64,000 bases of DNA from assembly GCA_013289875.1 (NCBI GenBank), contig JABCZC010000007.1:1-64000 (forward strand), given 5' to 3'. Each line of letters starts with the position of its first letter. The first letter of the stretch is position 1. Under the pieces are notes generated by a model, which was given only the letters and a program-made list of their open reading frames with translations, searched no databases and had not been told where the DNA came from. Both the position numbers and the translations under genes were made by a program. The stretch is from Acidobacteriota bacterium. GTDB taxonomy: Bacteria > Acidobacteriota > Terriglobia > Terriglobales > Acidobacteriaceae. Below, one piece after another: positions 25,270 to 48,594 of the stretch.

Positions 25270-26220
25270 TCAGCCAAGCCGGGCCAGGCCACTCCGAACA
25301 AGATCGGCGATCGCTGCCGTGAGCAGGGGCGAAGCGTTCAGCGATTCCGGGCGGCGCAGTTCCATATCGAGATTTGCAGCCAACTGGCGAAAGCCAATGT
25401 CAATGTCGTAAAGAATCTCGACGTGGTCGCACAGGAACCCAACCGGCTGCACGATGATCTTGCGCACGCCCTCATTGTGCAGTGCAGTCAGCGTGTCTTC
25501 GACTGTCGGGCCGATCCATGGGCCGCTGGACATGCCCTGGCTCTGAAAGGCAAAGAACCAGTTGTCATGTGTCAGACCATCGACGCGCTCGGCCACCAGC
25601 GCCGCCGTGTGCTTCGCTTCCACCGGATAAGGATCGCCCCCCGGAGCAGTATGTGTGGGTGCACCATCGCTGGCCGATGGAGTCTGGATCGTTCTACAGG
25701 GAACGCTGTGTGCCGTGAACAGCACAGGAACGGGGGTGCCAGATTCGATGCTGAACGGATTCCACACCGCACACAGCCGCTCGGCAAAGGCGTCGGCGAG
25801 GAGCGGATGATCTCCCCAGCCCTCCACGAAATCGACTTGCATTCCTTTGGCTGCGGCGAAGACGGCTCGGCGGTAAAGTCCCACGCTGGTGCGAGAGTTC
25901 TGCGGCGCGAGACAGATTGCGACAACCGTGTCGATGCCGTCGTCGCGCATCTTGCCGACAACATCCACGATGTATGGCTTCCAGTTGCGCATGCCTACAT
26001 AAACCGGGAGACCAAGCTCCTGCGAAAGCAGTCGTCCCTGTTCAAGTGTTAGGCGGGTCAAGGGGCTGGTGCCGATGAGCGAATAGCGGTGGCGAATCTC
26101 ATCGACTACGCTGTCAGGCAGTGGGCGACCGCCGGTGATGTTGCAGAGGTATTCGGGGATTTCGTCGAGCGCATCCGGCGTTCCGTGCGCGAGCAGCAGG
26201 ACAGCTGTGTGCTCACTCAT
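25270..26220 (-). CDS. hemH: Ferrochelatase
   Basis: 316 aa. Inserts iron into a porphyrin. The N-terminal LLLAHGTPDALDEIPEYL, the SLIGTSPL segment and the metal-site His in FTAHSVP are typical; the second site lies in QSQGMSSGPWIGP with the QPVGFLCDHVEILYD acid pair near the end. It overlaps hemE by 8 bp. Whether it acts on protoporphyrin or coproporphyrin depends on the partner oxidase. Confidence 0.94.
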   Translation of the reverse strand: MSEHTAVLLLAHGTPDALDEIPEYLCNITGGRPLPDSVVDEIRHRYSLIGTSPLTRLTLEQGRLLSQELGLPVYVGMRNWKPYIVDVVGKMRDDGIDTVVAICLAPQNSRTSVGLYRRAVFAAAKGMQVDFVEGWGDHPLLADAFAERLCAVWNPFSIESGTPVPVLFTAHSVPCRTIQTPSASDGAPTHTAPGGDPYPVEAKHTAALVAERVDGLTHDNWFFAFQSQGMSSGPWIGPTVEDTLTALHNEGVRKIIVQPVGFLCDHVEILYDIDIGFRQLAANLDMELRRPESLNASPLLTAAIADLVRSGLARLG

Positions 26221-27337
26221 GGCGGTTCACTGCCGCGTATTCACGGACGAATTTCACTGCCTGTTGAACATTTTCGACTGGAGTATTCGGGACGATGCCG
26301 TGGCCGAGGTTGAAGATGTGTCCGGGGCGCCCCCCGGCCTGATCGAGGATCTGGTGGACTCGCCGGCGGATCAGCTCCGGCGCAGCGAAGAGGGTGATAG
26401 GGTCCAGGTTACCCTGTACCGCGCAGGCGTGGTCGAGGCCTCGCCACGCCCGGTCAAGCGGGGTGCGCCAGTCGAGACCGAGCACGTCGGCTCCAGTGTC
26501 GTGCATCGAGGGGAGCAGGCTCGCGGTGTCGACGCCGAAGTAGATCACTGGGACGCCCATGGCCTGGACATCGCGGACCAGCGTCTTCGTCGTAGGAAGG
26601 ACATACTCGCGGTAGTCCTCAATGCTCAGTGCACCTGCCCAGCTGTCGAATATCTGGATAACGTCGGCTCCGGCCTCGACCTGCTGGCGCGCGAACTCGC
26701 GCAGCACCTTCACCAGCTTATCCAGCAACCTGCGCCACGCATCCGTCTCGCGATACATCAGTGTCTTGGTGTGGACATAGTTGCGCGATCCGCCACCCTC
26801 GATCATGTAGCTGGCCAGAGTGAAGGGCGCGCCGCAGAATCCGATGATCCCAAGGCGATCCTTGAAGTGGGCAACGACGCGGGCAATAGCTTCAGCAACG
26901 TAGCCCAACTCCGATGCGCGGTCGGTGCGGAGACGGGCGATGTCGTCGGCGGTGCGGACAGGCTTGTGGATCACCGGGCCTTCTCCTGCCTGGAACTCGA
27001 AGTCCAGTCCCATGCACTCGAAGGGAAGCAGCAGATCGGCGAAGATGATCGCGGCATCCACGTCCAGCTTTTCGGCGGCAGTAATCGTCACCTCAGCCGC
27101 TAGTTTCGGCTGCTTGCAGATTTCAAGCAGGGAGTGATGCCGCCGGACCACCTGGTACTCCGGCATGTAGCGGCCAGCCTGGCGCAGGAACCACACCGGC
27201 GTTCTATCCACAGGCCGGCGCAGGCAGGCACGAACGAAGCGGGTGCCACCGGTCATGGTAGGGATTTCAGAGCCGGTCTTAATTGGGGGGATTTGCAGTC
27301 GTTCAGACATCATGGAATCAACAGATGAGGTTAGCAT
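26213..27337 (-). CDS. hemE: Uroporphyrinogen decarboxylase
   Basis: 374 aa from the ATG at 27337 (GGAAG 6 nt upstream); starts at 27313 or 27310 (MMSERL) or at MTGGTRF are also possible because the first 27 residues are not conserved in the family. The signature PVWFLRQAGRYMPEY gives the substrate-binding Arg. GFCGAPFTLASYMIEG and FDSWAGALS are also typical. It decarboxylates uroporphyrinogen III to coproporphyrinogen III. First gene of the haem string. Its promoter must lie in the repeat-bearing region to the right. Confidence 0.95.
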   Translation of the reverse strand: MLTSSVDSMMSERLQIPPIKTGSEIPTMTGGTRFVRACLRRPVDRTPVWFLRQAGRYMPEYQVVRRHHSLLEICKQPKLAAEVTITAAEKLDVDAAIIFADLLLPFECMGLDFEFQAGEGPVIHKPVRTADDIARLRTDRASELGYVAEAIARVVAHFKDRLGIIGFCGAPFTLASYMIEGGGSRNYVHTKTLMYRETDAWRRLLDKLVKVLREFARQQVEAGADVIQIFDSWAGALSIEDYREYVLPTTKTLVRDVQAMGVPVIYFGVDTASLLPSMHDTGADVLGLDWRTPLDRAWRGLDHACAVQGNLDPITLFAAPELIRRRVHQILDQAGGRPGHIFNLGHGIVPNTPVENVQQAVKFVREYAAVNRHE

Positions 27338-27374
27338 CTGCGGCTTCCGGATGCGCGCGGTTCATCTACCGCTT

Positions 27375-27707
27375 CCCCCCACCCCCCTCCCCGTTTTTAT
27401 TCACTTTTGTAATCGTTTCATTCCATGTTACTTATTCCGGCAGGTTTGTAACCGTTTCATTCCGTTGAGGAAACTTGTAACCGTTTGTTACGGCTGGGTT
27501 ACAGGTGCGAAATGGGCTCAACTTTCGTAACCGTTTCATTTCATTGGAACAACTTGTAACCGATTCTGCTGCTGCGAGTTACCTGAGTGGATCGGGTGGG
27601 CGTGCTTGTGGGCATGATCGGCTCTTGATCAATGAAAAAGCCCGCCGGGTAGGCGGGCTTCCTTAGTCTCTATTTCTATTTTACCGGATTGGGGGAAATT
27701 GTCGGCC
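27375..27707. repeat. Composite intergenic element, copy 1 (C-tract, GTAAYCG repeats, hairpin, 42-nt box)
   Basis: Order on the + strand: C-rich tract 27375-27392; GTAATCGTTTCATT 27409-27422 and four further copies of the GTAACCGTTT motif at 27448, 27477, 27527 and 27556, pairs of them 29 bp apart; GTTACAGG at 27499; hairpin 27638-27660; box 27666-27707. The same parts occur in the same order and at nearly the same distances at 48267-48594 (from first GTAATCG to box end 298 versus 297 bp). Read on the - strand the box resembles a promoter (CCGACA, 16 nt, TAAAAT) placed just before the hairpin. No coding frame explains it. The neighbour hemE starts 38 bp to its left, so the element may affect haem gene expression. 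Confidence 0.75.
27635..27660 (-). terminator. Strong hairpin with T-run on the - strand
   Basis: AAGCCCGCC pairs with GGCGGGCTT across a 5-nt loop, followed on the - strand by TTTTT. It is the hairpin part of the composite element. No confident - strand gene lies directly upstream, so it may end a short RNA started in the adjacent box. Confidence 0.6.
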
Positions 27708-28162
27708 AGAAATCGTAGAGGCTGAGCGTTGTCTCGGGAGCAGTCGCCGCTCCCGAAGCGCGTGCAGGGATTCGTCAGGTCCGTTCAACATGAGGGACCT
27801 GTTGGCGCACGTTGAAGGCGAAGGGTCACTCCGACGATATGCCGGACTTTACGGACAATTAGAAGCTCAACACCCACCAGATCAGTCAACAGAAGCGCGT
27901 TTATCGGTAGTAATTCTTTCAAGGTTTGGTGATTGAGGTCGAACGAGCGCATCGTCAAGTAAGCAATCATCCATCCGGGATCCGTCAACCCGGTCAAGGA
28001 TGATTGGGGGAAATGCTTGCGATATACTTGCGTTGGCGTATCGGACGCCACCGTGTCCGCGGGCAGGGCTGAGCCCATCGACTAGTCTGGTCCCCAACAA
28101 TCGAAACGATCTTCTTTGAGCCCGTCACGCGGACATCGGGCAGTGATCCAAAGGAGATGGTC
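27708..28162. other. Gap left of the ankyrin gene, one weak reading frame
   Basis: 455 bp between the composite element and the ankyrin gene. A - strand frame at 27785-28078 (97 aa, ATG start) contains a hydrophobic run ELLPINALLLTDLVGVELL and basic residues at the end. I do not recognise it and see no good ribosome site. It could be a small gene or a remnant. The + strand has the ankyrin gene's AAGGAG at 28151-28156. Confidence 0.3.
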
Positions 28163-48266: not shown

Positions 48267-48594
48267 CCCCCTCCCCCCTGTTTTGGCTATGATTCCGTAA
48301 TCGATTGATATTAAATTGTTTAACGGGTACGTCGACGCTACATAATAGTCAGTAAAAGACTTATCGCCACTTTCATGATTCTAAGCGAGTTACAGGCAGC
48401 TTTTGCACTGATTTCAGAGCTGTCGCTAAGGCAGCCCTGTAATCGATTGATATTATTATGGATGGCTGAAGCTATTTGATTCTAAAGCCGTTGCGGCAAT
48501 CCGTTGTCGCTGAAGACAAAAGACCCGGCGATGATGGCGACGGGTCTTTTCTGTCTCTATTTCTATTGTAGCGATTTGAGAGAAATAGTCCGCC
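48267..48594. repeat. Composite intergenic element, copy 2 (C-tract, GTAATCG repeats, hairpin, 42-nt box)
   Basis: Order on the + strand: C-rich tract 48267-48278; GTAATCGATTGATATTA at 48297-48313 and an exact second copy at 48439-48455; GTTACAGG at 48389; hairpin 48518-48550; box 48553-48594. The box matches the one at 27666-27707 in 34 of 42 positions, including an identical run of 12 (AGAAATAGAGAC on the - strand). Distances from the first GTAATCG to GTTACAGG (92 versus 90), to the last repeat (142 versus 147), to the hairpin (221 versus 229) and to the box end (297 versus 298) agree with copy 1. It sits between the 3' ends of the permease and EamA genes. Confidence 0.75.
48518..48550. terminator. 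Bidirectional hairpin terminator
   Basis: AAAAGACCCG pairs perfectly with CGGGTCTTTT around a 13-nt loop, giving a T-run on either strand. It could end both the permease transcript (+) and the EamA transcript (-). It is part of the composite element. Confidence 0.8.

Follow-up and report, generated by a model that had tools for sequence, protein, structure and literature searches.

Copy 1, the composite non-coding element beside hemE, shares its parts with a second stretch of the window (the whole 64,000 nucleotides of DNA that were analysed), and the question is what kind of element it is and whether it concerns hemE. The initial annotation had listed a C-rich tract, repeat words, GTTACAGG, a hairpin and a box in both stretches, and these were all found in copy 1 and in the second stretch, copy 2 (Table 1). 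The claimed constancy of spacing was also recovered, the distance from the first repeat to the end of the box being about 298 bp in copy 1 and about 297 bp in copy 2, and Pfam assignments bore out that the flanking genes are unrelated: hemE (URO-D) and an ankyrin-repeat protein gene at copy 1, GntP permease and EamA-type genes at copy 2. Five exact words of the GTAAYCGWTT type were present in copy 1 as described, at the repeat starts and in steps of 39, 29, 50 and 29, but copy 2 has two exact words and not five. The window (64 kb) has 7 exact words, every one of them inside the two copies. With one mismatch allowed, 15 words were found against 7.2 expected, a count reached by 1 of 100 shuffles, and the word count alone is therefore modest evidence.

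Table 1. Features of copy 1, copy 2 and the hemE gene, in window positions.
Feature	Position	Strand	Basis or remark
Copy 1 C-rich tract (G-tract on minus strand)	27375-27392	+	Left end of element; ~40 nt from hemE
Copy 1 repeat array, five 28-bp direct repeats	27409..27583	+	Starts 27409, 27448, 27477, 27527, 27556
Copy 1 GTTACAGG	27498		Sequence
Copy 1 ORF 3'-end remnant, overlapping last repeat units	27536..27606	-	Alignment with C111
Copy 1 deletion junction	27606..27608	-	299 nt of C111 missing; same junction in C44 (BLASTN, minus strands)
Copy 1 ORF-start remnant, ATCAAGAGCCGATC ATG	27613..27629; ATG 27615-27613	-	Resembles C111 ORF start
Copy 1 terminator-like hairpin	27638..27660; stem 27640-27646 / 27652-27658, loop 5	-	Sequence; followed by TTTTTCATT on minus strand
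Copy 1 conserved box, promoter-like	27667..~27709	-	Alignment and counts of 30 boxes
hemE, uroporphyrinogen decarboxylase	26213..27337	-	Pfam URO-D E=4.3e-128; first gene downstream on copy 1's presumed sense strand
Copy 2 C-rich tract	48267-48278	+	Few nt past stop codon of GntP permease gene
Copy 2 repeats, GTAATCGATTGATATT subtype	48297..48466; at 48297 and 48439	+	Word search
Copy 2 GTTACAGG	48389		Sequence
Copy 2 terminator-like hairpin, AAAAGACCCG ... CGGGTCTTTT	48518..48550	-	Sequence
Copy 2 box, promoter-like	48554..~48600	-	Box pattern and model match

The two copies belong to a large family. Genome searches with GTAACCGTTTCATTNC at up to one mismatch and with the box pattern at up to three mismatches returned 20 and 33 matches respectively, and none with either reversed pattern. 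A covariance-model search in relatives, a check named beforehand, was performed with a model of hairpin and box built from 27 copies. This matched 63 places in the own genome at E<=1e-3 and recovered copies in congeners, eight of which gave 27 matches (G003), 31 rows (G006) and 11, 9, 2, 1, 0 and 0 matches; a single weak match was obtained in 32 other genomes. In a family-wide draw at least 16 of 150 genomes, the own genome included, had matches at E<=1e-4. Other Acidobacteriaceae genera had at least 27 (G149), at least 21 (G126) and at least 20 (G063) model matches, and BLAST with one G126 copy gave at least 38 rows in G063 and at least 41 in G126, the latter corresponding to at least 40 copies that are 75–91% identical to the query copy. 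A set of 120 copies was assembled from 64 of the own genome (the 63 matches and the weaker C10:90071, E 0.0485), 27 of G003 and 29 of the 31 G006 rows, one opposite-strand echo and C370 being omitted. Motif and unit counts excluded thirteen copies that contain or adjoin an ORF; of the 107 remaining, 105 were used for the motif, and 119 of the 120 copies were folded.

Read in box orientation, the C-rich tract (often GGGGGTACCCCCTCCCCC) comes first and is followed by repeats, hairpin and box, and where the left gene points towards the element the tract usually lies some tens of bases from its stop codon. In copy 1 this tract is also the left limit of homology with other copies. The sense strand of the element is probably the minus strand, on which a typical copy consists of a promoter-like box, a terminator-like hairpin, 28-bp direct repeats and a G-rich tract. 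ATTnTA (TAnAAT on the minus strand) was present in all of 30 boxes, which had been selected by a pattern containing it, and on the other strand the box reads TTGGC...ATTTCC...TAnAATAGAAATAGAGA and is promoter-like. Because the classical -35 is unconserved across genera, the promoter call rests on TAnAAT together with the position of the ORF in full-length copies, in which an ORF and its Shine-Dalgarno-like site come after the box. On the minus strand of copy 1 the -10-like TAAAAT occupies 27683-27678, a conserved upstream block, ATTTCC / TGGCC, extends to ~27709, and a sigma-70-like match, CCGACA-16-TAAAAT, has 0.3 expected in shuffles; transcription would start at ~27671. Stems of at least 7 net pairs formed in 96 of 119 copies, compared to 39 upon one shuffle of each, with a mean folding z of -3.4. 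As the 119 copies contain 92 distinct 8-nt hairpin arms, pairing has largely been kept while the sequence has changed. A terminator scan called none at the copy 1 hairpin. In nine aligned G126 copies (L356-L364) conservation continues for ~50 bp past the box and in most of them ends near CTTGACA, which may mark the real right end or a further promoter element.

The origin of copy 1 was traced by comparison with longer copies. In C111, C63, C39, C30, C48, G003 C49 and others an ORF of 122–153 aa, mostly with a Shine-Dalgarno-like site, directly follows box and hairpin and is in turn followed by the repeats. BLASTN of the minus strands aligned positions 5-109 and 111-335 of the copy 1 query with 5-108 and 408-634 of the full-length C111, at 88.6% identity over 105 nt and 86.8% over 228 nt, leaving a 299-nt gap inside the ORF. 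Accordingly, the minus strand of copy 1 runs from AAGAGCCGATC-ATG into the ORF tail, which ends ...NGLQVVPMK in C111, after a few bases. Copy C44 has an identical junction (86.1% and 84.3%) at another site, its flanks giving no match to those of copy 1 at E<=1e-8, while C23 has a different junction of its own with 292 nt missing. Loss of the ORF has thus occurred at least twice, and two sites carry one and the same ORF-less form. A multiple alignment set the C111 gap elsewhere, across the hairpin, in disagreement with the local BLASTN alignments, which were preferred; C10:90071 aligns with C111 only in the repeat part. Internal deletion is how MITEs arise, and derivatives of this kind from a longer coding parent occur here at several sites (copy 1, C44 and C23 relative to C111). 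By these alignments, copy 1 belongs to a dispersed family of small genetic units as a non-coding member that has suffered an internal deletion.

The proposal of a non-autonomous element, one of three readings in the initial annotation, is thereby supported, by the deletion derivative, by one junction at two sites and by the 0–31 matches in congeners against 63 in the own genome. Support for the set of three is partial overall: a regulator-binding array is supported indirectly, by a spacing period of ~10.9 bp, and a small RNA family is not supported for the repeats, which lack clear covariation, the window having no Rfam match at gathering score, although the hairpin is terminator-like and a short minus-strand RNA conceivable.

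The ORF itself encodes a candidate zinc-finger-like protein, as judged from an N-terminal motif of the type C-x(n)-G-xx-C-x(n)-[RK]G-x(n)-C-xx-H, of which one cysteine is replaced in C48, and from weak profile matches (best Pfam 0.012, NCBIfam 0.016, PHROG 0.0031). Six of the seven matches to the ORF family in the own genome lie inside elements, directly downstream of the box. An adjoining model match accompanied 2 of 2 ORF matches in G003, 4 of 5 in G006, 1 of 2 in G007, 1 of 3 in G008 and 1 of 6 in G005; it was absent from 1 of 7 in the own genome, 1 of 5 in G006, 1 of 2 in G007, 2 of 3 in G008, 5 of 6 in G005, both in G004 and the only one in G002, some of these having a similar leader by eye. 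Relatives of the ORF were found in 22 of 61 genomes searched. Those in G101 (L343) and G149 (L350, L353, L355) start after a G-tract or G-run and the one in G126 (L361) starts some 70 nt past it, and therefore the element is the leader of these genes there. An upstream terminator-like hairpin was present in 5 and absent in 10 of 15 relatives within 260 nt before the matched stretch, the 15 comprising 14 of other genera and one of G002; two more lie at contig edges. A phage or plasmid origin of the ORF was considered and rejected, as the C111 protein had no tblastn match in phage or plasmid collections, and a search with alignment A2 gave no confirmed relative in viral contigs. The ORF slot of C22 (L033, G000, about 27003-27800) is taken by an unrelated 114-aa ORF (MSNIFQKLG...). 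At L210 (G000 C104), unlisted by the model, a longer zinc-finger gene is preceded by a similar promoter-hairpin leader, but with GTAACCCATTGATTC-type words in opposite orientation before a C/G tract and ATG. Degenerate GGGATTAGCCATTAGC / TAATGGCTAATGGC tracts were seen near several elements or zinc-finger genes (L015, L017, L019, L234, L254).

The repeats have a 28-bp consensus of about GTAAnYSATTSATTCYAWTGGAGTTAC. A motif trained on the same copies that it scored gave 220 sites of at least 10 bits in the 105 ORF-less copies, compared to 24 on the other strand, 2 for the reversed and 2.6 for the shuffled motif. Between 0 and 6 units were detected per ORF-less copy (107 copies), and 1–4 are usual in the family; the same 107 copies combine conserved ends with a variable number of inner units, as BOX elements do. 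Spacings between units, of which 83 of 158 were non-redundant with related copies partly included, cluster mostly at 28–31, 39–44 and 48–54 bp. The best period was 10.9 bp (R 0.60), and none of 2000 random sets was as periodic, the null being uniform spacing and related copies being not fully independent. An RNA hairpin inside each repeat (GTAA...TTAC) was considered and rejected, as pairing of the GTAA/TTAC ends was no higher than column composition predicts and showed no clear covariation. Phasing at ~10.9 bp together with the lack of clear base-pair covariation argues for an array of DNA-bound protein over a structured RNA, and a natural reading is that a protein occupies the repeats from one side of the helix. 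The zinc-finger protein is our guess for this protein, on grounds of co-occurrence.

Taken together, copy 1 is probably an ORF-less orphan of the promoter-leader-operator module of a zinc-finger gene family, dispersed in a MITE-like or BOX-like manner; we prefer this explanation with some reserve. The full unit would comprise, on the minus strand, the box, the hairpin no more than ~60 nt into the presumed transcript, the ORF, the repeats phased at ~11 bp and the G-rich tract. Copy 1 would have kept promoter, hairpin, start codon, ORF tail, repeats and G-tract upon loss of the 299 nt of ORF. Transcription would start in the box and be largely stopped at the hairpin, while a protein supplied in trans, most probably the zinc-finger product encoded by intact copies, would bind the repeats on one DNA face and control read-through or the behaviour of the copy. 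ORF-less copies would then be orphan modules copied into spacers, often beside stop codons. As hemE is the next gene downstream, ~40 nt past the G-tract of copy 1, an effect of copy 1 on hemE is possible. A bolder extension, that this is a transposase-free self-amplifying unit, seems to us rather improbable. Here the promoter-attenuator-operator module of a zinc-finger protein would multiply as orphan phased arrays by gene ends and so provide tens of binding sites, a dispersed regulon or a chromosome-organising network, possibly with a short hairpin RNA from each.

The sites occupied by the copies bear on a rival that we consider unlikely, although it deserves serious weight: a purely selfish MITE-like element, spread by trans-acting machinery, in which promoter, hairpin and repeats serve only as ends or recognition sites and do nothing for the host. 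It would account for the uneven copy numbers, 63 in the own genome against 0–31 matches in eight congeners, for the at least 40 G126 copies of 75–91% identity to the query and for one deletion junction at two sites. It would also fit the gene context. Among 81 copies with both neighbours called by a custom codon-score caller, 34 were convergent, 35 co-directional (24 and 11) and 12 divergent. Convergent spacers were enriched (34 of 81 copies against 7 of 41 pairs, p 0.008, with the 64-kb window alone as baseline and orthologous sites counted once per species), and such enrichment is read in part of PMC3049150 as a sign of mobile, parasitic entities. The co-directional spacers had a mild bias (24 against 11, p 0.04). 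A 3'-UTR element of the left gene was rejected as a general rule, since 32 of 105 called left genes point away. An orientation of sites with the replichores was likewise rejected: the first 21 G126 matches looked strongly biased, and with at least 40 copies the counts were 14+/5- against 10+/11- (p 0.12, the origin being assumed at the contig start).

The usual marks of such an element were not seen in the copies examined. No transposase was found in the unit, the ORF of 122–153 aa having weak profile matches only. The ends, GGGGGTACCCCCTCCCCC and ...GTCGGCCAAG, had no matching termini by eye, and the ends of copy 1 have only a 12-nt, 83% match of C-tract to G-rich sequence. One pair of filled and empty sites, in which 357 bp lie between matched flanks in C8 of the own genome and 106 bp with a plain terminator in G006:C137, showed no target duplication, nor did nine aligned G126 copies, although such a duplication may be gone from old insertions. 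In G006 there is also another related right-hand gene, which adjoins a different element. For copy 2 no clean empty site was found, as its neighbours differ in the relatives examined. Hairpin pairing that is kept with 92 distinct arms in 119 copies, as if selected, also speaks against a purely selfish element, as do sites common to species. A number of these were found on comparing the flanks of the 120 copies, including the hemE site in the own genome and G003, and the site of C67, which corresponds to G006 C39 on both sides. In orthologous-site pairs of the own genome, G003 and G006 the partner was the best match among the relative's copies in 6 of 18 and not in 12 of 18. Box identity in 11 pairs was 0.73, equal to that of random pairs, and interior identity 0.60 against 0.59 upon shuffling, the 7 omitted pairs including best-match pairs C26/G006 C2 and G003 C231/G006 C9, both with ORFs. 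The shared sites are thus either old with fast interior turnover or have been hit repeatedly. G063 and G126 have an element after the same gene, with 78% identity in the element, 84% in the left flank and differing right flanks, as in vertical descent. Elements L026 and L035 have nearly identical ends, differing middles and a common right flank of 198 bp (93%), a mosaic such as recombination or gene conversion among copies would leave.

A further rival is a trans-acting small RNA family, in which the minus-strand promoter of each copy yields a ~55-nt hairpin RNA or a ~300-nt RNA. Most copies do have a promoter-like box followed by a terminator-like hairpin, and T was in excess after the stem in 64 copies on the minus strand compared to 33 on the plus strand. 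Stem sequences differ among copies, however, and hence there is no shared seed in the stems; the repeats have no clear RNA covariation. The suggested comparison with Rfam was negative, in that no family reached gathering score in the window, which also contained no tRNAs, and 10 further loci had no match above cut-off other than that of a neighbouring tRNA. Acido-Lenti-1 (RF01687), a short hairpin RNA family named after acidobacteria, matched L010 weakly, at 25.2 bits against a gathering score of 37, and was rejected, as many terminator-type matches scored similarly on the L010 hairpin. We regard the small RNA family as doubtful indeed. Least credible is that these are only bidirectional terminators of convergent genes with a common local consensus, for although the hairpins resemble native terminators found in this genus, and one such terminator is present at the empty site, the repeats, C-tract, box and ORF as well as the co-directional and divergent contexts (24 + 11 + 12 of 81) would be left unexplained.

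The family resembles both MITEs and BOX elements in being dispersed, modular and, where tested, internally deleted. BOX elements of Streptococcus pneumoniae are described in part of PMC3049150 as small, dispersed, intergenic and modular, with end modules, variable internal modules and enrichment between convergent genes. Compared by architecture, the present family is likewise dispersed and modular, with variable inner units and convergent enrichment, but its inner repeats are asymmetric, helix-phased and without clear structure, one end is a promoter-like box with hairpin, and the family has a visible parent that encodes a protein. Correia elements and other MITEs, according to sections of PMC10969869, are short and dispersed with sigma-70-like promoter sequences, MITEs being further marked by terminal inverted repeats and, in young copies, by direct repeats at their flanks. 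The present copies are similarly short and dispersed and have a promoter-like box, but inverted termini or flanking direct repeats were not seen and the parent ORF is no recognisable transposase. In the same phylum, dispersed repeats of the REP/TIRYT families are palindromes tied to tyrosine transposase genes, as stated in part of PMC3733652, whereas no tyrosine transposase gene was seen in the units here. No acidobacterial family of this kind was found described in the open-access papers searched, which is weak evidence of absence. The family would add, in a phylum abundant in soil, dispersed repeats with a visible non-transposase parent gene and a DNA-phased array. Two questions become accessible to direct experiment: could the trans factor of such dispersed repeats be a DNA-binding protein other than a transposase, and do orphan copies beside genes such as hemE influence their neighbours?

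To the right of copy 1, the stretch at 27829-27901 recurs beside the C111 copy (84%) and that at 28034-28075 recurs in C59 and G007:C9; these may be another short dispersed repeat.
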